DNA of 64,000 nt from Selenomonas ruminantium AC2024 (GTDB lineage: Bacteria; Bacillota; Negativicutes; Selenomonadales; Selenomonadaceae). The stretch spans positions 2,542,001 to 2,606,000 of the forward strand of contig NZ_JIAC01000001.1 in assembly GCF_000687995.1 (NCBI RefSeq). The letters run 5' to 3'. The notes under the pieces were generated by a model. The model was not told the DNA's origin and did not search any database. It saw nothing but the letters and a program-made list of their open reading frames with translations. This document shows positions 17,361-30,042 of this stretch, piece after piece. Position 1 is the stretch's first letter. The number at the start of each line of letters is the position of its first letter. A program made the translations under genes and the position numbers.

Positions 17361-17579
17361 ATGATTAGTCCATATACCGCAGGTGCGTTAGTATTGGTTG
17401 CTCTGATTGTTTTCGGCCCCAGCAAGCTGCCGGAAATTGGCAAAGCTCTGGGCAAGGGCATCAAGGAATTCAAATCCGGTGTTGTCGATGAAGCTAAGAA
17501 GCCGGAAGATACGCAGATGATGAACGTAACGGAACAGCCCAAAGAACTGCCCAAGGCTGAAGACCAGACGAAACAGTAA
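17361..17579 (+). CDS. tatA: Sec-independent translocase subunit TatA
   Basis: Forms the size-variable pore component of the twin-arginine translocase. The 72 residues have one N-terminal membrane helix ([12 protein letters not shown]), the [21 protein letters not shown] amphipathic helix and a polar charged tail. AGGAGG lies just before the ATG. tatC follows after 13 bases. With no TatB gene beside it, this is the minimal TatAC arrangement common in Firmicutes. A likely Tat substrate, the fumarate reductase flavoprotein, is encoded at 25306-27153. Confidence 0.94.
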
Positions 17580-17592
17580 GCCGGTGGCATAA

Positions 17593-18366
17593 ATGGCAGA
17601 AGAACAAAAATACGAAGAAATCGAGGCGCCCAAGCAGATTGGCGCCCCGGCAGATGCCGAAGTGGTCTTAGACGATGGCAGCATGTCCCTGATTGCCCAT
17701 CTGACCGAGCTTAGAAGCCGCCTGATTAAATGTCTGGTAGCTACGGCGCTTGGAAGCTGTGTGGGCTATTTTTTCATTCAGGATATCATGCACTATCTGA
17801 CCCTGCCGGCGGGCAAACTCTATTACATGCAGCCCGCTGAAGCATTCTTTACCTATTTAAAGGTAGCCTGCGTGGCCGGTTTCCTTCTGGCACTGCCCAT
17901 TATCTTTTGGCAGGTCTGGCGTTTTTTCCTGCCCGCCCTGACATCGAGGGAACGTATGGTGCTTGGTATTGTGGTGCCGGCATCCGTCGTTCTTTTTTTC
18001 TGTGGACTGGCCTTTTCCTTTTTCCTGGTGCTGCCAGCGGGTATCAAATTCTTCCTGGGCTTCGGCAATGCAGAGCTGGAAGCGCTGCTGTCGGTGAACA
18101 AATACTTTGACTTTGTCATCATGTTTGTCCTGCCCTTTGGCTTTATCTTTGAACTGCCGTTGGTCATGACCATTATGGGCAAGATGGGGCTTATCACCTC
18201 CGCATTCTTAAAGAAGTATCAGCGGATTATCATCTTCCTGTCCTTCGTCGTCGGCGCGCTCATTACGCCGACCCCGGATGTGTTCACCCAGTCCATGATT
18301 GCCCTGCCCATCATCGTACTTTATGAGGTAGGCTATTTCATTGTTCGTTATATTTTACGCAGATAA
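17593..18366 (+). CDS. tatC: Sec-independent translocase subunit TatC
   Basis: Receptor for twin-arginine signal peptides in the cytoplasmic membrane. The 257 residues start with an acidic cytoplasmic tail, then SLIAHLTELRSRLIKCL, the typical TatC N-terminal helix with the HLxELRxR motif. Six hydrophobic segments follow, with the family's FxxYLKVA-like TYLKVACVAGFLLALPII and the conserved Pro/Thr-Pro segment ALITPTPDVFTQ. The tail ends in basic residues. It is co-transcribed with tatA and lies 15 bases before the ubiD-family gene. Confidence 0.95.
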   Translation: MAEEQKYEEIEAPKQIGAPADAEVVLDDGSMSLIAHLTELRSRLIKCLVATALGSCVGYFFIQDIMHYLTLPAGKLYYMQPAEAFFTYLKVACVAGFLLALPIIFWQVWRFFLPALTSRERMVLGIVVPASVVLFFCGLAFSFFLVLPAGIKFFLGFGNAELEALLSVNKYFDFVIMFVLPFGFIFELPLVMTIMGKMGLITSAFLKKYQRIIIFLSFVVGALITPTPDVFTQSMIALPIIVLYEVGYFIVRYILRR

Positions 18367-18381
18367 GAGGAGGTAAAATTC

Positions 18382-19842
18382 TTGGCTTATAAGGACTTGC
18401 GGGAATTTATGGCCGACTTGGAGTCCAAGGGACTCTTAAAGCGCATAAAGACCGAGGTTGACCCGGAACTCGAGATTACGGAAATCACCGACCGGGTATC
18501 CAAAATGGAAGGGGACAAAAACGTCGCCCTGCTCTTTGAAAACGTCAAAGGCTCGAAAATGCCCGTGCTCATGAACGCCTTCGGCAGCTATGAACGCATG
18601 GCGATGGCCCTCGGTGTGGAAAAGCTCGATGATGTTGCAGACGAGCTACGGGAGATGCTCAAGCTCCCCTACGTTTCCCTGCAAAACAAAATGAACGTTG
18701 TGACCATGATTCCCATGATTAAGCGCGCAATTAACTTCCCGAAATACGTGAAGAATGCGCCCTGCCAGGAAGTTGTGGAAACGGAAAATCCGAGTCTTGA
18801 CGATATTCCCATTCTCAAATGCTGGCCCGATGACGGCGGCCCCTTCGTGACCCTGCCCTTGGTGTTCACCAAGAACCCCAAGACCGGCAAGCGCAATGTG
18901 GGCATGTACCGCCTGCAAAAATACGACAGCCGCACCACAGGCATGCACTGGCATATCCACAAGAACGGCGCAGAAAACTTCCGCGATACCAAGGCGCAGG
19001 GCGGCGATAGAATCGAAGCGGCAGTAGCCATCGGCACGGACCCGGTGCTTACCTATGCTGCGACCGCTCCTCTGCCCCGCGATATTGATGAAATGGTCTT
19101 TGCCGGTTTCCTGCGACATAAATCCGTGGAAATGGTCAAGTGCAAGACCGTGGATATCGAAGTGCCCGCCACGGCCGAAATCATCCTAGAAGGCTATGTG
19201 CTGACGGATGAAAAGCGCCGCGAAGGCCCCTTTGGCGACCATACGGGCTATTATTCTTTGGCAGACGATTATCCCGTGTTCCATATCACAGCGATTACCC
19301 ACCGCAAGGACCCGATTTACTTCTCCACGGTGGTCGGCAAGCCGCCTATGGAGGACTGTTACCTCGCCAAGGCTACGGAACGCATCTTCCTGCCGATTCT
19401 ACAGCAGATGCAGCCGGAAATCATCGACATCAATATGCCGCTTGAGGGCGTATTCCATGACTGCTGCATCGTATCCATCAAGAAGCAGTACCCCATGCAG
19501 GCCCGCAAGGTCATGCACGCACTCTGGGGCATGGGGCAGATGATGAACGTCAAGATGATTATCGTCGTCGATGCCCATGTCAACGTACAGGACCTCAAGG
19601 AAGTCTGGTGGCGCGTCTACAACAATATCGACGCCAAGCACGATTTGGAAATCGTCGAAGGCCCGCTGGACGTTCTCGACCACTCCTCCCCCATGGCCAA
19701 GTGGGGCGCCAAGCTGGGCATTGATGCCACCAAGACCTGGCCGGAAGAGGGCCACACCCGGGAATGGCCGGAGGAAATCAATATGAGCGAGGAAATCAAG
19801 GCAAAAGTTGATGCCAAGTGGAAGGAGCTTGGTCTCGATTGA
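18382..19842 (+). CDS. UbiD-family prenylated-FMN decarboxylase (menaquinone pathway type)
   Basis: UbiD enzymes decarboxylate aromatic or polyprenyl-aromatic acids using prenylated FMN. The 486 residues are of full length. They start AYKDLREFMADLESKGLLKRI and contain PFVTLPLVFTKNPKTGKRNVGMYR, the conserved GPFGDHTGYY and DCYLAKATERIFLP, and HSSPMAKWGAKLGIDAT. The start is TTG at 18382 with GAGGAGG 8 bases upstream. It overlaps a UbiA-type gene, which suggests that the pair converts the futalosine-pathway product toward menaquinone (MqnL-like). That assignment is from context, since other UbiD substrates are possible. Confidence 0.85.
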   Translation: MAYKDLREFMADLESKGLLKRIKTEVDPELEITEITDRVSKMEGDKNVALLFENVKGSKMPVLMNAFGSYERMAMALGVEKLDDVADELREMLKLPYVSLQNKMNVVTMIPMIKRAINFPKYVKNAPCQEVVETENPSLDDIPILKCWPDDGGPFVTLPLVFTKNPKTGKRNVGMYRLQKYDSRTTGMHWHIHKNGAENFRDTKAQGGDRIEAAVAIGTDPVLTYAATAPLPRDIDEMVFAGFLRHKSVEMVKCKTVDIEVPATAEIILEGYVLTDEKRREGPFGDHTGYYSLADDYPVFHITAITHRKDPIYFSTVVGKPPMEDCYLAKATERIFLPILQQMQPEIIDINMPLEGVFHDCCIVSIKKQYPMQARKVMHALWGMGQMMNVKMIIVVDAHVNVQDLKEVWWRVYNNIDAKHDLEIVEGPLDVLDHSSPMAKWGAKLGIDATKTWPEEGHTREWPEEINMSEEIKAKVDAKWKELGLD

Positions 19843-20687
19843 TTGATATAAAAGCCCATATTAACAACGTGGCTTTGCACCACACCATTTTTGATTTGCC
19901 CTTTGCCTTTATGGGTGCCGTACTGGCAGCAGGCGGCCAGCCCACTTTCCATGACCTGCTCTGGATTGCGCTGGCCATCACCACGGGCCGGGCGGCAGCC
20001 ATGGCGCTGGATAACCTGGCGGATTTGAAATACGACAGCCAGCAGCCCCGCATGAGCTACCGGGCGATGGTCAGCGGCCGCATTACCAAGCGGGAAGCCA
20101 AGATTTTTATCGTCATCTGCCTCGTGCTGATGGTGCTTTCCGTCATGCAGCTGCAGCCCATTTGCCTGTACCTTCTGCCGCTGGCTGCCCTGCCCTTTTT
20201 GATTTACCCCTTCACCAAGCGCTTCACCGGCTGGTGCCATCTCTTCTTAGGCGTAGCCATCGCCATGGCTCCGGCAGGCGGCTGGGTTGGTGTCAGCGGG
20301 GAAATCACCACCCCCATGGTGCTCCTGTGCATTGCCGTAGCTCTTTGGATTGGCGCCTTTGACGCCATGTACGGTGCTCAGGACAAGGAATTTGACAAGA
20401 GTCAGGGCCTGCATTCTCTGGCCGTAAGTTACGGGGCTGAAAATGCCTTTAAGCTGTCGGCTGCAATGCATGTCATCTGCATTGCCTGCTTCTTTGCCGT
20501 GGGCGTCATGATGTCCTTGGGACAGCTTTACTTTATCGGCGTGGGCATTGCGGCAGGTACCCTTATCTATCAGCACCGCATAGTGAGCCCCACGGATTTC
20601 AGTCAGGTGACCCAGCGGTACTTTATGCGCAACGGCATCGTGTCCGTAGCCATCTTCGTATGTACCTGGCTTAGTTTCTACTTATAA
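19839..20687 (+). CDS. UbiA-family polyprenyltransferase (MqnP/MenA-like)
   Basis: Membrane enzyme that attaches a polyprenyl chain to an aromatic acid. The product of about 282 residues has eight or so hydrophobic segments and both Asp-rich motifs: DNLADLKYD (first; usual NRxxDxxxD, here N-L-A-D-L-K-Y-D) and DAMYGAQDKEFD (second). TTG at 19839 is the probable start. It overlaps the ubiD stop and has AAGGAG 11 bases upstream. A GTG at 19818 is the alternative. Pairing with a UbiD-type decarboxylase points to menaquinone synthesis through 1,4-dihydroxy-6-naphthoate, but this is inferred. Confidence 0.85.
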   Translation: MIDIKAHINNVALHHTIFDLPFAFMGAVLAAGGQPTFHDLLWIALAITTGRAAAMALDNLADLKYDSQQPRMSYRAMVSGRITKREAKIFIVICLVLMVLSVMQLQPICLYLLPLAALPFLIYPFTKRFTGWCHLFLGVAIAMAPAGGWVGVSGEITTPMVLLCIAVALWIGAFDAMYGAQDKEFDKSQGLHSLAVSYGAENAFKLSAAMHVICIACFFAVGVMMSLGQLYFIGVGIAAGTLIYQHRIVSPTDFSQVTQRYFMRNGIVSVAIFVCTWLSFYL

Positions 20688-20709
20688 TCAACAAAATTGA
20701 GGTGACTCC

Positions 20710-21573
20710 ATGTCCGCAAAAATTCTCGAAGGCAAGTTTTTCGCACAGCAGTTAAAAGACGATGCAGGGCGCCGCGCGGCGGCTTTGCAGGAAAAATATG
20801 GCCGCGCTCCGGGGCTGGCCGTTATCCGCGTGGGTAACGACCCGGCTTCTGAAGTCTATGTCCGCAACAAGGACAAGGCCTGCGCCGCTTTGGGGCTTCA
20901 TTCCGAAGTTATCGCGATGCCCGAAGAAACCAGCAAAGACGAATTAATCGCCAAGATAGATGCCCTCAATGCCGATGAAAAAATCGACGGCATTCTCGTG
21001 CAGCTGCCCCTGCCTGCCCAGATTGCGCAGTTTGAGGCCGAAATCCTTAACCGCATTGACCCGTCAAAAGATGTTGACGGCTTCCATCCCGTCAATGTCG
21101 GCAAGATGGTGACGGGCGAACCAGCCCTGCTGCCCTGCACGCCGGCAGGCTGCATCCGCATGCTGGAAATGGCCGGCATTGAAATCGCTGGCAAACGTGC
21201 CGTGGTCATCGGCCGCAGCAACATCGTGGGCAAACCCATGTTCCATCTACTGATGGCGAAAAACGCGACTGTAACAGTGTGCCATTCCCGCACCGAGAAT
21301 TTAGCGGAAATCACCCGTCAGGCCGATATTTTGGTCGCGGCCATTGGCAAGCCCAATTTTGTGAAAAAAGATATGGTAAAAAAAGGTGCAACCGTCATTG
21401 ATGTCGGCATCAACCACATTGCCCCCAAGAAACTTGTGGGCGATGTGGACTTTGAAGCCGTCAGCGAAATTGCCGGCGCCATCACCCCCGTACCGGGCGG
21501 TGTAGGTCTCTTGACTGTCGCCATGCTCATGCAGAATGTTGTGCAGGCAGCAGAAACGCACCTACAATGTTAA
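20710..21573 (+). CDS. folD: Methylene-THF dehydrogenase/methenyl-THF cyclohydrolase FolD
   Basis: Interconverts 5,10-methylene-THF and 10-formyl-THF through two reactions. The 287 residues are of normal length. They show VGNDPASEVYVRNKDKAC with the catalytic Lys/Tyr region, GILVQLPLP, DVDGFHPVNVGKM, CTPAGCIRMLE, the Rossmann motif VVIGRSNIVGKPM and VTPVPGGVG-like ITPVPGGVGLLTVAML. GAGGTGA precedes the ATG. The fhs gene lies 160 bases downstream beyond a repeat, so the two act in the same C1 route. Confidence 0.97.
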   Translation: MSAKILEGKFFAQQLKDDAGRRAAALQEKYGRAPGLAVIRVGNDPASEVYVRNKDKACAALGLHSEVIAMPEETSKDELIAKIDALNADEKIDGILVQLPLPAQIAQFEAEILNRIDPSKDVDGFHPVNVGKMVTGEPALLPCTPAGCIRMLEMAGIEIAGKRAVVIGRSNIVGKPMFHLLMAKNATVTVCHSRTENLAEITRQADILVAAIGKPNFVKKDMVKKGATVIDVGINHIAPKKLVGDVDFEAVSEIAGAITPVPGGVGLLTVAMLMQNVVQAAETHLQC

Positions 21574-23477: not shown

Positions 23478-24344
23478 TCAACCGATTTTAAGTTTCGCTT
23501 GAGCCGATACATGGCGGTCAAAGCCCATATCTTCCTTGCTCATGCCGAGGGCAAAACCCACGAGCTGCTGCAAGTGCAGGATGGGAACCTCAGCCTGGGA
23601 GTGAACGGCTTCGCGGCCCTCCGGCTCGTACATGTCAAGCTGCATCTGGCAGAGCGGGCACGGCGTAGCAATGGCCATAGCACCGGCACGGCCTGCACTG
23701 TCTACAATCTGACCGGTAACAGTCAGTACATCATGTTCAGCGGCCAGCTGGGCATGGAAGCCACAGCATTTACGGCTGCCATCAAACCATACGGGTTCTG
23801 CACCGAGTTTGCGGATAAGGCGCTCCATATATTCGGGATGCTTGCCATCGCCATGGTTCATAATTTCCTGCGGGCGCAGGATATGGCAGCCATAGTAAGC
23901 GGCAATCTTGACGCCATGCAAAGGATTAACCACTTTGCCATCCAGAAGTTCCGGATGTTCGTCCAGAATCCAGAGGAAGTGGGTCACTTTACTCGTGCCT
24001 TTGTACTCATAGGGATGGCCAGATTCCTTGAGCACCTTGTTGACTTTTTCCTTGAGTTTGGCATCTTTATCGAGGCGGGCTTTGGCGGTGCGGAGCTGCA
24101 GGGTGCAGGTGTTGCACACCGTCATGATATCCAGGCCCATATTCTCGGCAATGGAGATGTTGCGGGCGTTGATAACCAGCGCCGCAAAATCATTGACCCC
24201 CTGTGCATGAGATGCGCCGCAGCAGGTCCAGTTGGGGATTTCCTCGATTTCAATGCCTAATTTATCGCAGACTTTGTTCAGCGAAGTATAGGCTTCAGCT
24301 GCTGCACCTTCCAGTACGCAGCCCGGAAATAATGCGTATTTCAT
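23478..24344 (-). CDS. Fumarate reductase/succinate dehydrogenase subunit E (HdrB-like, CCG domains)
   Basis: Likely membrane-associated quinone-reacting subunit of the type-E complex encoded with the next two genes. The 288 residues have two CCG-type cysteine motifs (NWTCCGASHAQG and SRKCCGFHAQ) with partner cysteines in FPGCVLEG, CNTCTLQL, YGCHILRP and CPLCQMQLD. This is the pattern that binds non-cubane Fe-S clusters in HdrB and SdhE. No transmembrane helix is visible, as expected for this class. The ATG at 24344 lies 2 bases after the TGA of the Fe-S subunit gene, so the two are coupled. Confidence 0.87.
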   Translation of the reverse strand: MKYALFPGCVLEGAAAEAYTSLNKVCDKLGIEIEEIPNWTCCGASHAQGVNDFAALVINARNISIAENMGLDIMTVCNTCTLQLRTAKARLDKDAKLKEKVNKVLKESGHPYEYKGTSKVTHFLWILDEHPELLDGKVVNPLHGVKIAAYYGCHILRPQEIMNHGDGKHPEYMERLIRKLGAEPVWFDGSRKCCGFHAQLAAEHDVLTVTGQIVDSAGRAGAMAIATPCPLCQMQLDMYEPEGREAVHSQAEVPILHLQQLVGFALGMSKEDMGFDRHVSAQAKLKIG

Positions 24345-24346
24345 AA

Positions 24347-25303
24347 TCATTCAGCCTCCTTCGCTGCCGCTTCGGCATTCTTCACAATCTTGCGGATGGT
24401 TTCGATTTCAGGATTCACCTTATGCTTATCCAGCGGATTCATCTTGCCTACCCGCATGAGGCGCAGAGCCATGGGCGCGCGCAGACCGGCCATCAGGAAG
24501 CCTTCGGATTTGATGTTGAGCTTGGATTCGTCCAGTGTGCCGGATTCGCTGATATCGTCATAGATGGCTTTCGCATGGCGGGCACCGACGTTGTCGTCCA
24601 GCTTCTTGGCAAAGGTTGCTTCCTTGAGTTTTTCAATCGCACCGGCCGGGTCAAGACCCTTCGGGCATTTGGCCGTACATTCCTGACAGTTGAAGCAGCG
24701 CCAGAGTCCGGCATCCACTACAGCTTTAAGGTGTTCTTCCGGGCTCTTATCACGGGAATCGGCCACGAGTTTTTCGGCTTTGACAAATACAAAGGGGTCA
24801 AGGAAGTCAGACTGATTCAGGCTGTTCTTATTGCACTCGGATACGCAGGAGCCGCAGAGAATGCAGCCGGCGTATTTCTTGTATTTGTTGAAATCCTCGG
24901 GGGACTGCTTGCAGCCTGTTTCCTTAGAGAACTCAGGCTTGGGCTGAACCACGGGTTTAATCTTCTTGATGCGGGCGTATTTGGGGTCCCAGTCCACCAC
25001 GAGGTCACGGATGACCTTGAAGTTGCCCAGCGGTTCAATGATGAGTTCGTTGGTATCGTAGCGCTTCACCAGATTTTCTACGAGCATTTCGCAGGCAAGT
25101 TCGGCATTGCCGTTGACACGGACAGCGCAGGCACCGCAGATACTCGAGCGGCAGGAGCAGGTAAAGGACAGAGTCGGGTCCTGTTTTTCCTTGATTTCAA
25201 TCAAGGCTTCGAGAACGGTCATGCCGGTTTTCAAAGTCACGGTGTAATCCTGTTCCCATTTTCTGCCTTCTACGAAGCGATGGATTCTAAGTTTCACATC
25301 CAT
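24347..25303 (-). CDS. Fumarate reductase/succinate dehydrogenase iron-sulfur subunit
   Basis: Electron-transfer subunit. The 318 residues hold a plant-type [2Fe-2S] domain (CSCRSSICGACAVRVNG, about 48-64) and two ferredoxin-type segments, CILCGSCVSECN and CFNCQECTAKCPKG. The C-terminal tail of about 100 residues is longer than in textbook SdhB and is Lys/Glu-rich. It lies 2 bases after the flavoprotein stop and 2 bases before the E subunit, forming one operon. The absence of a membrane-anchor gene with haem ligands places the complex in the SdhABE/MfrABE group. Confidence 0.9.
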   Translation of the reverse strand: MDVKLRIHRFVEGRKWEQDYTVTLKTGMTVLEALIEIKEKQDPTLSFTCSCRSSICGACAVRVNGNAELACEMLVENLVKRYDTNELIIEPLGNFKVIRDLVVDWDPKYARIKKIKPVVQPKPEFSKETGCKQSPEDFNKYKKYAGCILCGSCVSECNKNSLNQSDFLDPFVFVKAEKLVADSRDKSPEEHLKAVVDAGLWRCFNCQECTAKCPKGLDPAGAIEKLKEATFAKKLDDNVGARHAKAIYDDISESGTLDESKLNIKSEGFLMAGLRAPMALRLMRVGKMNPLDKHKVNPEIETIRKIVKNAEAAAKEAE

Positions 25304-25305
25304 AA

Positions 25306-27153
25306 TCAATACTTCCTTTCTTTCGGCTGGTATTTCGTGATTACGACATCTTTATACTCGGCACGATATTTGCCGGTTTCCTTATCCTTGAAAATCAAGG
25401 TGTGTTTGAGGAAGTTCGCATCATCACGTTTCGGGAAGTCTCTGCGGGAATGGCCGCCGCGGCTTTCCTTGCGAGCAAGTGCGCCCTGCACAATCGCATG
25501 GGAAATCTGCAGGAGGTTGCCCAGCTCTACATACTGCTCGAAAGCGGTGTTATAGACATGAGAATTATCGCCGACATAGCAATGTTCGTATTCTTTATCC
25601 AGCGCATCGAGTTCGGCGCTGGCCTGAGTAAGCTGTGCTTCGTCGCGGAATACACCAGCCTTGTACCACATAGTATTAATCATGGCATCGCGGATTTCCG
25701 GCACACTCTTGTTGCCTTCCCGGCCGCGGGTCGTAACCTTATCGAAAGTCGTTTTCCACTTGTCGCAGGCCTTGGCAAGGCTGTCCTGACTGCCTACATA
25801 GGAGTTGGCTTTGGCAAATTCAGCGGCACCATCACCGGCGGTATGACCAAATACCAGCACTTCTGACAGGGAGTTTGCGCCTAAGCGGTTGGCACCATGT
25901 ACGGATACGCAGCTGCATTCACCGGCTACATAAACGCCCTTTACGCGGCTTTCGCCTGTATGGAAGTCAGCCATTTCAAGGCCGCCCATGGAGTAATGGC
26001 AGGTCGGTGCAATGGGTACGGGTTCTTTGGTGATATCGACACCGGCAAAGCGGCGGGACAGGTCATATACCTGACCAAGGCGTTCATGGATGCGTTCGGC
26101 CGGAATCTTTGTGAAGTCCATGTAAACGCCGGCATGGATGCCTTCGCCGACGCCACGGCCCTGTTCGATTTCCGTGGCAATGGCACGCGCAACGATATCG
26201 CGGGTAGCCAGTTCCATTCTCTCCGGTGCGTATTTGCTCATGAAACGCTCGCCGTCCTTGTTGATGAGCAGCGCACCTTCAGCACGGCTGGACTCGGACA
26301 GCAGCACGCCGTTGGCCGACAGGCCCGTGGGATGGAACTGCACCATTTCCGGGTCTTTGAAGGGAATGCCCACGTTCATGCCGGCAACGATGCCGTCACC
26401 CGTGGAGCTGTACGGATTAGACGTACGCACCCAATACACGCGGCCATAACCGCCGGTGGCAATGATGATGGATTTGGCCGGTACACCAATCAGATTGCCC
26501 GTGCGCATATCCATGGCGATTACGCCGTTGAGTTTATCGCCGTCCATGCTGATTTCGAGCATCTGACATTCGGAAATAAAGTCAATGTTGTTTTCCAGGC
26601 ACTGCTCAAAGAGCGTGTGCACCATGGCATGACCGGCGCGGTCCTCGAAGTAGGAAGCACGCGGATGGCTGTGGCCGCCCATCTTGCGCTGATGGAAGGC
26701 ACCATCCTTCTGACGGTTATAGGGATAGCCCATATAGTCCATCTCATAGATGTTTTCGCCAGCGCGTTCGGCAAAATATTCCACCGCATCCTGGTCGCAG
26801 AGATAGTCGCCGCCCTTGATGGTGTCAAAGACATGGGATTCAACGGTGTCCGTGGGGTCGCTCACGCCCGTAACACCATTCATGCCGCCCTGTGCCATCG
26901 TGGAAGCAGAACGGGTCGGAACCAGCTTCGTCATCACGGCTACCTTGAGTTCCTTGCGTTCAGCTGCCGCCAGCGCCGCCCGCATGCCGGCACCACCGCT
27001 GCCGATTACCAAAACATCATAGGTCACATCACCCGTTTTTACCTTTTCCGGAATATTCTTTCCATCCCAGGCAAAATACGTGCCTGCTGCCAGCACAACA
27101 CCGGCCGCAGCCGCCCCTTTGATAAATGTGCGGCGCGAAATTTCCGTTGCCAT
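25306..27153 (-). CDS. Tat-exported fumarate reductase flavoprotein subunit
   Basis: FAD-containing catalytic subunit. ATG at 27153 is chosen because AGGAGGG precedes it and it opens with a twin-arginine signal, SRRTFIKGAAAAGVVLAAGTYFA. The 615 residues have the FAD motif VLVIGSGGAGMRAALAA, FHPTGLSANGVLLSESSRAEG, GERFM and the C-terminal ANRLGANSLSEVLVFG. At the place where SdhA and FrdA link FAD covalently (RSHTxAxxGG) this protein has RSASTMAQGG, so the His is absent. A Tat signal on the flavoprotein together with an HdrB-like third subunit matches the periplasmic methylmenaquinol:fumarate reductase MfrABE described in Wolinella. Fumarate reduction is more likely than succinate oxidation in such an anaerobe. 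Confidence 0.87.
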   Translation of the reverse strand: MATEISRRTFIKGAAAAGVVLAAGTYFAWDGKNIPEKVKTGDVTYDVLVIGSGGAGMRAALAAAERKELKVAVMTKLVPTRSASTMAQGGMNGVTGVSDPTDTVESHVFDTIKGGDYLCDQDAVEYFAERAGENIYEMDYMGYPYNRQKDGAFHQRKMGGHSHPRASYFEDRAGHAMVHTLFEQCLENNIDFISECQMLEISMDGDKLNGVIAMDMRTGNLIGVPAKSIIIATGGYGRVYWVRTSNPYSSTGDGIVAGMNVGIPFKDPEMVQFHPTGLSANGVLLSESSRAEGALLINKDGERFMSKYAPERMELATRDIVARAIATEIEQGRGVGEGIHAGVYMDFTKIPAERIHERLGQVYDLSRRFAGVDITKEPVPIAPTCHYSMGGLEMADFHTGESRVKGVYVAGECSCVSVHGANRLGANSLSEVLVFGHTAGDGAAEFAKANSYVGSQDSLAKACDKWKTTFDKVTTRGREGNKSVPEIRDAMINTMWYKAGVFRDEAQLTQASAELDALDKEYEHCYVGDNSHVYNTAFEQYVELGNLLQISHAIVQGALARKESRGGHSRRDFPKRDDANFLKHTLIFKDKETGKYRAEYKDVVITKYQPKERKY

Positions 27154-27231
27154 ATTGCTTTTCCCTCCTAATAATACACTAGGCTTCTCAATCATCCCAT
27201 TATGAGACATTAACTAAGGCTATTATATATA

Positions 27232-27337: not shown

Positions 27338-29047
27338 TTAGAATTTGAATTGTTTCAGCGCCTGTTGCTGTTCATGAGCCATATTCGAGAGCGTTTCGCT
27401 GGCCGAGGCGATTTCTTCGGACGAGGCTGACTGTTCCTCGGTGGCCGCCGATACGGATTCCATATGCTGGGAGATAACCTGCCCCTTGGCGGTGATATCC
27501 TCGACGGAATTGGAAATATTGCCCGCATCTTCGTTAACCACATCGATAGCCCTATCCATCAGCACGGTCTTTTCTGCACCGTTCTCCACCAAATCGCGAA
27601 TCTGGTCAAAGACACGCTGCAAATCTTCTACGGACTGAGCACCGGCCACTACGGCTTCGCAGCCCTGATTCATGGATTTTACCGCTGCTTCCGTGTCCTT
27701 CTGCATGGTCATAATGAGCTGGGAAATCTTTTCGGCCGCTTCTTCCGACTGCTCGGCAAGCTTCCGGACTTCTTCAGCCACGACAGAGAAGCCACGGCCC
27801 TGCTCACCGGCGCGGGCTGCTTCAATCGCTGCATTGAGGGCCAGAAGGTTAGTCTGGCTGGCGATATTAGAAATTGTATCGACAATCGCGCCGATTTCTT
27901 CGGAGCGGGACCCCAGCTTGCCGACGATTTCCGAGGTATCACTGACAGTCTTTTCGACACCACGAATCTGCGCTACGGATTTTTCCAGAACATCATAACC
28001 GCGCTCAGCTTCTTCAGCAGCCTGCTTGGAATTCTGGGAAACATCACCGGCATGGTCACGCATTTCCTGAATGGAACGATTGACCTTGCTCAGCAGCTCC
28101 GTATTATTGCTGAGGGCAGCTTCCTGGTCCGCCACGAGCTGGGCGGATTCGCCCACAGCCTCGGCAGACTGCACAGCCGCCTGCGCGGACTGCATGGATG
28201 CTTCTTTCAGATTGGCCGATGCTTCATTGATGCTCTGCACAGTTTTATAGATGCCCTGCATATAGGAGGCCATCTTATTCTGCATATCCATCAGCGTTCT
28301 GGCTAAATGGCCGAACTCATCCCCGCGGTCAAAGGCAAGCCCTGTAGAGCGGAAGTCGCCATCACGGAGTTTTTCACAGCCTGCCTCCATAAAGCGCAAA
28401 GCGTTCGTAATGCTTTTAGCAATAACCTGACTAATACCAGCCTGAATGACCAGCGCGGCCAGCGTTACGATTAGAATTGTTATCGCAGCGGCACCATTGG
28501 CGCTGCTGCTGGCTTCATTAGCCGCTGCTGCCGCCTGATTGATTTTGTCCTGCTGGCCATGCAATGCATCCCGCAGACCTCTTGTTGCCGGCGAACCGTC
28601 TTTTTCATAGACCGTCAGTGCTTCTTCCGTATTGCCTGCCGCCGCAAGGCTCATGACCTTATTCATCACGCCCTGATACTTCTGCCACTCGCTGTCAATT
28701 TCGGGGATATTGGCCAGTTCCGAACCCTTCATGGCTTCTTTATAGGCCGTAATCGCCGCATCAAAATCCTGCTGGGCTTTCTGCTGCTGTCCCTTCACCC
28801 GCTGCAGATGCTCCGGATTATCCTTGAGCATGACTGCCTGCAGGGTCTTAACCATCATCACGCGGCTCTGTTCTACCGCTGTGCCGAGATGCTGAACGCC
28901 CTGCATTTCCCGATTGTACAGGCTCGCCATCGCATCATCGGCATTGGTCAGTGAGCGGTAGCCCACCAGACTGATGACCACCATGGCGACAGCCGCCACG
29001 CCCACTATAAGCAGCAGCTTAAAAGTCACCTTTATGTTGTCAAACAT
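27338..29047 (-). CDS. Methyl-accepting chemotaxis protein (four-helix-bundle sensor)
   Basis: Transmembrane chemoreceptor. The 569 residues begin with a membrane helix ([20 protein letters not shown]). A helical periplasmic sensor of the 4HB type follows (about 30-185; [26 protein letters not shown]). Then come a second membrane helix ([19 protein letters not shown]), HAMP, and a long coiled-coil signalling domain. Its hairpin tip is [40 protein letters not shown] at 29047 is chosen because GGGAGGA lies 8 bases upstream. Ligand unknown. It is a single gene, with no che genes adjacent. Confidence 0.9.
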
Positions 29048-29136
29048 GTAAAAATTCCTCCCTTTTCCATACACCAAAAAGCAGTAAGCCAAAAGTCAGA
29101 CAACTTCTCACTTACTGCTTTCATTCGCCAAAAATT

Positions 29137-30042
29137 TTATTCTCCCTGCAAGAGCTCGATAAATTTTCTTGCCGCCTGGGAAAGATGCTTGTTCTTGCCA
29201 TAGGCCGCTACGAGCTGACGATCGTCCACTTCTTCCTCCAACTGGAAGAAACAGGGCGGCTGTGACCAGCGGCCATTATGCACCACCATATCGGTGACGA
29301 GCGTTGCGCCCATGCCAGCCGCGCAGAGTTCCGCAGCATCCACAATGCTGTTGGCCTCAAAGACCACCTCCGGCGTGCATTGCGTCTCCATGCACAGGTC
29401 GCTGTAAATCTGGGACATGCGGCGACTTTCCTGCAGACAGATAAAGGGCTGGCCATGCATGCGCGCAAACGACATGACCGGATAAGGCATTCCCGGCACA
29501 TGATTGTATCCCCGAGCAAAAGGATGTGTTACGGGCAGAGCCAGCAACGTCTTCTCGGATAGGAGCGGAATGCGCTCGTAATTACTCTCCAATGGTTCAT
29601 AAATCAGCGCAAAATCAACAGCGCCTTCCGCCACCGCCTGTTTTAATTCATGGACACTGCTCTCCTTCACCATCAGCCGAATCCCCGGGTAACGGCGATG
29701 AAACTCGATGATGGGCTGTGTCAGATAACAGGTGGAACGGGTGCGGGAACTGCCGATAATGAGTGTACCCGATTTCATCCCCGTAAGGTCTGCCGTCTCC
29801 TGCACCAGCTCATGATAAATCCGCTGCATTTCCTTAGCCTTGCGCACATAAATTTCGCCAGCCGCCGTGAGCTGCAAAGGCGTCTGACTGCGGTCAAAGA
29901 GCGGCATGCCGATTTCCCCTTCGATTTTCTTTATCGACTGGGATAGCGACGGCTGCGATACAAAGAGCTTTTTCGCTGCCGCAGAAAATGTGCCGTCACT
30001 GGCTGCCTGCAAAACATATTTCCATTCATGTTCGTCAATCAA
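29137..30042 (-). CDS. LysR-family transcriptional regulator
   Basis: The 301 residues have the N-terminal winged helix-turn-helix (YVLQAASDGTFSAAAKKLFVSQPSLSQSIKKIEGEIGMPLFDR) and a C-terminal effector-binding domain (GTLIIGSSRTRSTCYLTQPIIEFHRRYPG onward). The start is probably TTG at 30042 with GGGGA upstream. It is transcribed in the same direction as nifJ but lies after the nifJ terminator. No divergent partner gene is visible, so the target is unknown. Confidence 0.88.
   Translation of the reverse strand: MIDEHEWKYVLQAASDGTFSAAAKKLFVSQPSLSQSIKKIEGEIGMPLFDRSQTPLQLTAAGEIYVRKAKEMQRIYHELVQETADLTGMKSGTLIIGSSRTRSTCYLTQPIIEFHRRYPGIRLMVKESSVHELKQAVAEGAVDFALIYEPLESNYERIPLLSEKTLLALPVTHPFARGYNHVPGMPYPVMSFARMHGQPFICLQESRRMSQIYSDLCMETQCTPEVVFEANSIVDAAELCAAGMGATLVTDMVVHNGRWSQPPCFFQLEEEVDDRQLVAAYGKNKHLSQAARKFIELLQGE

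Follow-up and report, generated by a model that had tools for sequence, protein, structure and literature searches.

The mfrABE Operon and Its Surroundings

The window, meaning the whole stretch of DNA that was analyzed, comprises 64,000 nucleotides (C1:2542001-2606000) of the single-contig, 2.83-Mb genome of Selenomonas ruminantium AC2024. It carries an operon of three genes in the order mfrA-mfrB-mfrE, in which neighbors overlap by four bases each. The first gene, mfrA (25306..27153, (-)), encodes an SdhA/FrdA-type flavoprotein subunit and lies within an open frame at 25306-27210 (-); translation probably begins at the ATG at 27151-27153, yielding a protein of 615 aa, and a likely ribosome-binding site (GGAGGG), read from the sequence, is found at 27163..27168 (-). 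Window MfrA is 98-99% identical to MfrA of several Selenomonas ruminantium records. A twin-arginine (Tat) signal had been claimed at the N-terminus of the flavoprotein, and this is borne out by the Pfam TAT_signal model (PF10518), which scores 24.3 bits on the N-terminus, MATEISRRTFIKGAAAAGVVLAAG, against a cut-off of 22.7 (30.2 bits in a whole-genome scan). The signal region covers residues 1-32 (27058..27153, (-)), with R7-R8 of the motif SRRTFIK at 27130-27135. Processing of MfrA is uncertain, since no clear AxA cleavage site is seen past the hydrophobic stretch in its sequence.

A loose lipobox-like [GAS]C occurs just past the hydrophobic stretch in eight of the 37 distinct Negativicutes Tat-bearing MfrA N-termini (L017, L024, L029, L032, L041, L045, L090, and L098), and window MfrA has no such Cys. 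The flavoproteins bearing it might be Tat lipoproteins, which would be a way of holding an anchorless complex at the membrane.

The iron-sulfur subunit gene, mfrB (24347..25309, (-)), encodes 320 aa when read from a TTG, with an ATG two codons later. MfrB contains the [2Fe-2S] cysteine set and two four-cysteine motifs, one of which is an ordinary [4Fe-4S] motif; the third motif (CFNCQECTAKC) has an extra cysteine compared with that of E. coli FrdB (CTFVGYCSEVC), as expected for a second [4Fe-4S] cluster and not for the [3Fe-4S] type. The product of mfrE (23478..24350, (-)) is HdrB-like and has two CCG domains with five cysteines per set (C-x31-CC-x34-CxxC and C-x39-CC-x34-CxxC) and 11 cysteines in all. 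No membrane-helix-like stretch is present in MfrB or MfrE (highest 19-residue Kyte-Doolittle mean ∼1.0), and mfrA, mfrB, and mfrE have no anchor gene among them or next to them, so the CCG-domain third subunit without a heme anchor that was described earlier is indeed what the operon contains. A scan of genome contigs yielded 53 relatives. The A, B, and E genes occur together in 50 of them, the exceptions being two in which the sequence ends before the expected place of E (L007, L024) and one without detectable B (L044).

On the opposite strand, tatA (17379..17498, (+); Pfam TatA_B_E, 57.2 bits) precedes tatC (17593..18366, (+); TIGR00945, 197.1 bits, cut-off 132.7), whose 3' end is 5.1 kb from mfrE. 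These are followed by the gene for an MqnL-type menaquinone-biosynthesis decarboxylase (18382..19842, (+); TIGR03701, 632.3 bits, cut-off 495.9) and one for a UbiA-type prenyltransferase, probably MqnP (19818..20687, (+); TIGR01475 is above its cut-off and the MqnP models are below theirs). The consecutive row tatA-tatC-mqnL-mqnP-folD (17379-21573) thus brings genes for export and menaquinone synthesis together near a presumed quinol-dependent, exported enzyme. A second TatA/B-type gene occurs at another site of this genome, along with six further Tat-signal matches above the cut-off, including molybdopterin and FAD oxidoreductases; the Tat pathway is therefore probably in use. Two Tat-signal FAD_oxidored proteins of ∼500 aa are encoded at G000:C1:1414171 and 1956836 (L173, L174). 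Four of the 53 relatives (L015, L035-L037) have tatC within the fetched flank and in the same orientation, and so does L100; mqnL follows it in each of these five. By tblastn, tatC was not found in the fetched signal-less loci, a weak absence because the flanks span only 1.5 to ∼6 kb.

Sufficient flanking sequence is available for 44 relatives, and in 23 of them a lysR gene related to that of the window (29137-30042) is located upstream in the same orientation. Between lysR and mfrA, the window has a chemotaxis receptor gene (27338-29092), which immediately precedes mfrA and shares its strand; such a gene is also directly upstream in four of these 44 relatives (L003, L005, L007, L043), whose MfrA proteins are 94-99% identical to that of the window.

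The FAD Site and Catalytic Residues

In an alignment of 82 flavoproteins, Ala83 of the MfrA motif RSASTMAQGG (codon 26905..26907, (-)) occupies the position at which E. coli FrdA has its FAD-linking His (His44, E. coli FrdA numbering); the preliminary description was correct in reporting this His as missing. In the same numbering, Arg114, Glu245, and Glu250 are kept and Thr244 is replaced by Ser, four positions with functional roles in the E. coli enzyme. His232, Arg287, His355, and Arg390 are likewise kept, and their roles in E. coli FrdA are given in excerpted text of PMC10238741. Conservation thus extends to the catalytic residues His232, Glu245, Arg287, His355, and Arg390.

Every distinct relative with a Tat motif has Ala at the FAD site (62/62) and none has His (0/62), so the pairing of Tat and Ala is not a matter of chance. 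The residues next to the Ala differ among relatives (AST, ATT, ATG, ATA, ATC, ATS), and therefore no conserved substitute nucleophile is seen there. No other flavin-linking domain, including the FMN-binding domain, appears in the Pfam listing of MfrA, and the earlier suggestion that the FAD might be held differently thus finds no support in the sequence. The companion suggestion, of non-covalent binding, fares better: the sequence comparisons agree with what it predicts, and in the excerpted account of Juhnke 2009 (PMC2680327), FAD is non-covalent in the Wolinella enzyme, which likewise has Ala (Ala86) at the His position. When this residue is changed to His (A86H), the same excerpt reports that the FAD bond becomes covalent and succinate oxidation is still absent. 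Window MfrA probably binds FAD without a covalent bond.

Phylogeny of the Flavoprotein

Flavoproteins were extracted from 142 of 156 loci; of the 14 that gave none, inspection by eye shows Thr in L104 and His in L148, L054 has no intact copy, and the others are not flavoprotein loci. The 129 distinct flavoproteins comprise 62 with Tat and Ala, 33 with Ala and no Tat, 33 with His and no Tat, one with Thr and no Tat, and none with Tat and His, in a set that was gathered with the window protein and the MFR profile and is uninformative on distant families. Two of the Ala sequences counted as lacking Tat are L049, whose apparent motif came from a spurious upstream start and was corrected by hand, and L042, from a metagenome assembly, which has an N-terminus without twin arginine yet falls inside the Tat clade. 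The idea that the missing His goes with export was rejected in view of the 33 of 129 distinct flavoproteins that have Ala and no Tat signal.

All Ala rows and one Thr row form a single clade (SH-aLRT 100) in a tree of 82 rows, from which L044, L103, L049, and near-copies at ≥93% identity were left out. A more careful tree of 61 rows, comprising 53 Ala rows and eight His rows chosen as outgroup, again recovers the Ala clade (100/100). Within it are a Negativicutes Tat clade (with L042; 100/98) and a Campylobacterota-type Tat clade (100/100), the latter including L137 from a genome of L046's phylum. The Desulfovibrionaceae, without Tat, are sister to the Campylobacterota-type clade (100/100), and the two together are joined to the Negativicutes Tat clade (99/92). 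A program warning flagged meeting points of long branches at some of the joins, including that of the Campylobacterota-type group. The 14 signal-less Negativicutes rows fall outside the Tat groups and inside the Ala clade. A single clade of all Tat rows (34 rows with L042) is rejected by the AU test (p = 2.1e-6); rows were labeled as Tat ahead of all tree building, but the quick tree of 82 rows was already known when this test was made. A phylogeny with MfrA, SdhA, and FrdA had been proposed as a check on the exported type; in the trees, the rows nearest to window MfrA carry the Tat signal, but the Ala clade also holds signal-less enzymes.

Because the Ala clade includes signal-less Negativicutes rows and the Desulfovibrionaceae, the loss of the His probably came before export and was independent of it. 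The most parsimonious order begins with loss of the His, followed either by two gains of the Tat signal or by a single gain and a later loss in the Desulfovibrionaceae. Two Negativicutes sequences, L104 (G056) and L105 (G017), have Thr at the FAD-His site (RSTTGCTGGG); their B gene is present and an E gene was not found within ∼3 kb.

Co-occurrence With the Classical Enzyme in Negativicutes

An MFR-type flavoprotein is encoded in 61 of 150 Negativicutes genomes (E ≤ 1e-150), 24 of them Tat-type and 37 signal-less as called by the start of the profile match; for 41 of the 61, the N-terminal sequence itself was inspected too and bears out these calls. The classical sdhA_Bsu-type flavoprotein is present in 22 of the 24 Tat genomes (it is absent from G088 and G096) versus two of the 37 signal-less genomes. 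When G056 and G017 are left out, as their flavoproteins have Thr in place of the His and no E gene was located in the vicinity, the latter count becomes one of 35 (Fisher p = 7e-13, a value that ignores kinship). Counted by family, sdhA_Bsu occurs in five of the six families with the Tat form and in one of the six with the signal-less form (one of the three genomes of that family). Among the 89 genomes in which no MFR-type flavoprotein was matched, 37 have it too. The family to which the window belongs (f1) has sdhA_Bsu in 34 of 34 genomes and the Tat form in 16 of the 34, a pattern that would be expected of a supplement.

Most of the signal-less genomes (28/35) have no other PF02910 protein (E ≤ 1e-12). 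These are all 23 genomes of family f21, among which G128 has the signal-less MFR flavoprotein on two contigs, together with G028, G052, G084, G104, and G108. The other seven (G001, G019, G048, G068, G072, G076, and G092) have one to four more PF02910 proteins, with sdhA_Bsu among those of G068. Since no other PF02910 protein is found in the 28, describing the signal-less form as a stand-in is well founded for these genomes, and tentative for the other seven. From these distributions, the exported form looks like a supplement to the classical enzyme, and the signal-less form like a stand-in for the cytoplasmic reductase. The genome of the window itself has a second complex with the His (RSHSLCAQGG), the b558-family anchor of which scores just below the cut-off (93.5 vs. 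96 bits).

Proposed Function and Alternatives

The genes, motifs, residues, phylogeny, and genome co-occurrence described above suggest, with a probability of roughly 0.8, that the product of the operon is a quinol:fumarate reductase of the MFR type (type-E), which is exported by Tat, binds FAD non-covalently, and occurs beside a classical complex. The predicted export, flavin linkage, direction, donor, and substrate would fit together as follows. MfrA would fold with non-covalent FAD in the cytoplasm and then assemble with MfrB and MfrE, and TatAC would carry the complex across the inner membrane on the signal of MfrA alone, as suggested by the anatomy and by Wolinella. The cell is diderm, and in its periplasm a menaquinol would supply electrons that travel through the CCG-type clusters of MfrE and the three clusters of MfrB to the FAD, which would reduce fumarate or a similar enoate outside the inner membrane, where its import is not needed. 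MfrABE would work beside the signal-less classical complex with its b558-type anchor, and its direction is probably fumarate to succinate only. The donor may be plain menaquinol. The methyltransferase probe PF06969, unvalidated for 8-methylmenaquinone methyltransferase, has one match in this genome (383 aa) and one also in a Sulfurospirillaceae genome, and no such methyltransferase was identified with it in the former. In the open-license literature, methylmenaquinol was not found in connection with Sporomusa, and in connection with Selenomonas was found in a gastric microbiota study only.

Except for the change of Thr244 to Ser, MfrA matches FrdA at the substrate-binding and proton-donor residues that were checked, and this makes it unlikely that the exported enzyme, with its non-covalent FAD, acts on another enoate (mesaconate, crotonate, methacrylate, urocanate, or an aromatic acrylate) in place of fumarate. 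Some weight must be given to such a substrate, as a wide range of enoates is reduced by periplasmic flavin enzymes across the larger superfamily (C. jejuni Mfr is reported to accept mesaconate and crotonate) and the classical complex of this genome could already process fumarate; Wolinella MFR does reduce fumarate, according to the excerpted text of PMC2680327. Signal-less relatives with the same operon exist, so this type of enzyme can work inside the cell, and the tree places the Tat and signal-less forms in one clade; it could be supposed that the Tat signal of window MfrA is inefficient or unused and the complex stays cytoplasmic. This is quite improbable given that 62 distinct Ala-type sequences retain a twin-arginine motif, the first Arg of which falls within residues 3-8 in every case except L060, and that the genome has TatA, TatC, and the six other Tat-signal matches. 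Covalent attachment of FAD at another residue, for which no evidence was found, is more improbable still, considering the variable residues beside the Ala, the Pfam scan without an FMN-binding domain, and the non-covalent Wolinella enzyme (excerpt of PMC2680327).

For the exported fumarate reductase reading, a broader history can be proposed, toward which we lean with some reserve. The loss of the His would have founded a clade of type-E, probably one-way fumarate reductases of cytoplasmic origin, and the gain of Tat, in two events or in a single one that was reversed in Desulfovibrionaceae, would have switched the side of the membrane on which they work; in Negativicutes, the signal-less form would replace the classical complex, and the exported form would be added for the use of fumarate outside the membrane. 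The exported MFR with non-covalent FAD is already known from Wolinella. New here are the signal-less relatives that also lack the FAD-linking His, and the finding that in Negativicutes the Tat form accompanies the sdhA_Bsu type and the signal-less form almost never does.

The window enzyme extends the anatomy of MFR from Campylobacterota to Selenomonadaceae. Hydrogen-driven fumarate reduction has long been known in Selenomonas, and such rumen hydrogen sinks are more expressed in low-methane sheep, according to an excerpt of PMC6776011. Counts of "frdA" in rumen surveys could mix classical inner enzymes with exported ones. The Ala clade also offers natural pairs with and without export, and neighbors with and without the His, for probing the purpose of the covalent FAD bond.

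Comparison With Known Systems

MfrA shares its fold family and catalytic residues with classical FrdA/SdhA (E. coli L155 and L156, and L056 of the same genome), but those proteins have the His at the FAD site, no Tat signal, and adjacent membrane anchor genes; assignment to a classical SdhA/FrdA complex was rejected, as the FAD-linking His and the transmembrane anchor are both absent. Soluble flavocytochrome c fumarate reductases and urocanate reductases have a heme or FMN domain. This type was also rejected (TIGR01813, 164.5 vs. 285.45 bits), PF02910 being present and a heme or FMN-binding domain not, as was thiol:fumarate reductase TfrAB (NCBIfam TfrA, 473 vs. 718 bits). MfrE resembles the heterodisulfide reductase subunit HdrB over almost its full length, with two CCG domains, and its five PDB matches include 9sfi_C (7.8e-48) and 5odc_B (4.3e-44); HdrB acts on disulfides, and quinol chemistry for MfrE is a prediction. 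The signal-less Ala-type A-B-E complexes of other Negativicutes and of Desulfovibrionaceae have the same operon and the same Ala but no Tat signal, at ∼45-53% MfrA identity (L042 apart).

The Wolinella complex is a Tat-exported methylmenaquinol:fumarate reductase with no detectable succinate oxidation, as excerpted from Juhnke 2009 (PMC2680327). The same excerpt states that the FAD-linking His is conserved in all such complexes except SdhABE of C. jejuni and W. succinogenes, and is not conserved in the periplasmic enzymes of Shewanella. Searches of the open-license literature brought up no paper on this enzyme in Negativicutes, judging by the listings, and no export or flavin measurement for this lineage. 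The NCBIfam MFR equivalogs NF042982, NF042952, and NF042965 all score below their cut-offs in the window (665/1100, 336/600, and 312/500 bits), and the enzyme is therefore not classed as NCBI's 8-methylmenaquinol:fumarate reductase; the NF042982 cut-off was passed in none of the 150 Negativicutes genomes, in 14 of 101 genomes around L051, and in two of 98 around L046. Unlike the Wolinella enzyme, that of the window belongs to a separate Negativicutes branch, with 42-45% MfrA identity to the Campylobacterota-type Tat proteins. The two nevertheless share the Tat signal on A, the Ala at the FAD-His site, the gene order A-B-E, the extra [4Fe-4S] cysteine in B, a ten-cysteine E without a membrane helix, and a second, classical complex in the same genome (Wolinella features from excerpts of PMC2680327). 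This anatomy, including the cysteine motifs of B and E and the missing anchor, agrees with the periplasmic MfrABE type to which the preliminary description had assigned the operon. Judged by sequence, the window enzyme would work like MFR, as a member of the same clade; because the Tat-exported state without the His is already published for Wolinella, the observation is one of a known state in a new lineage.
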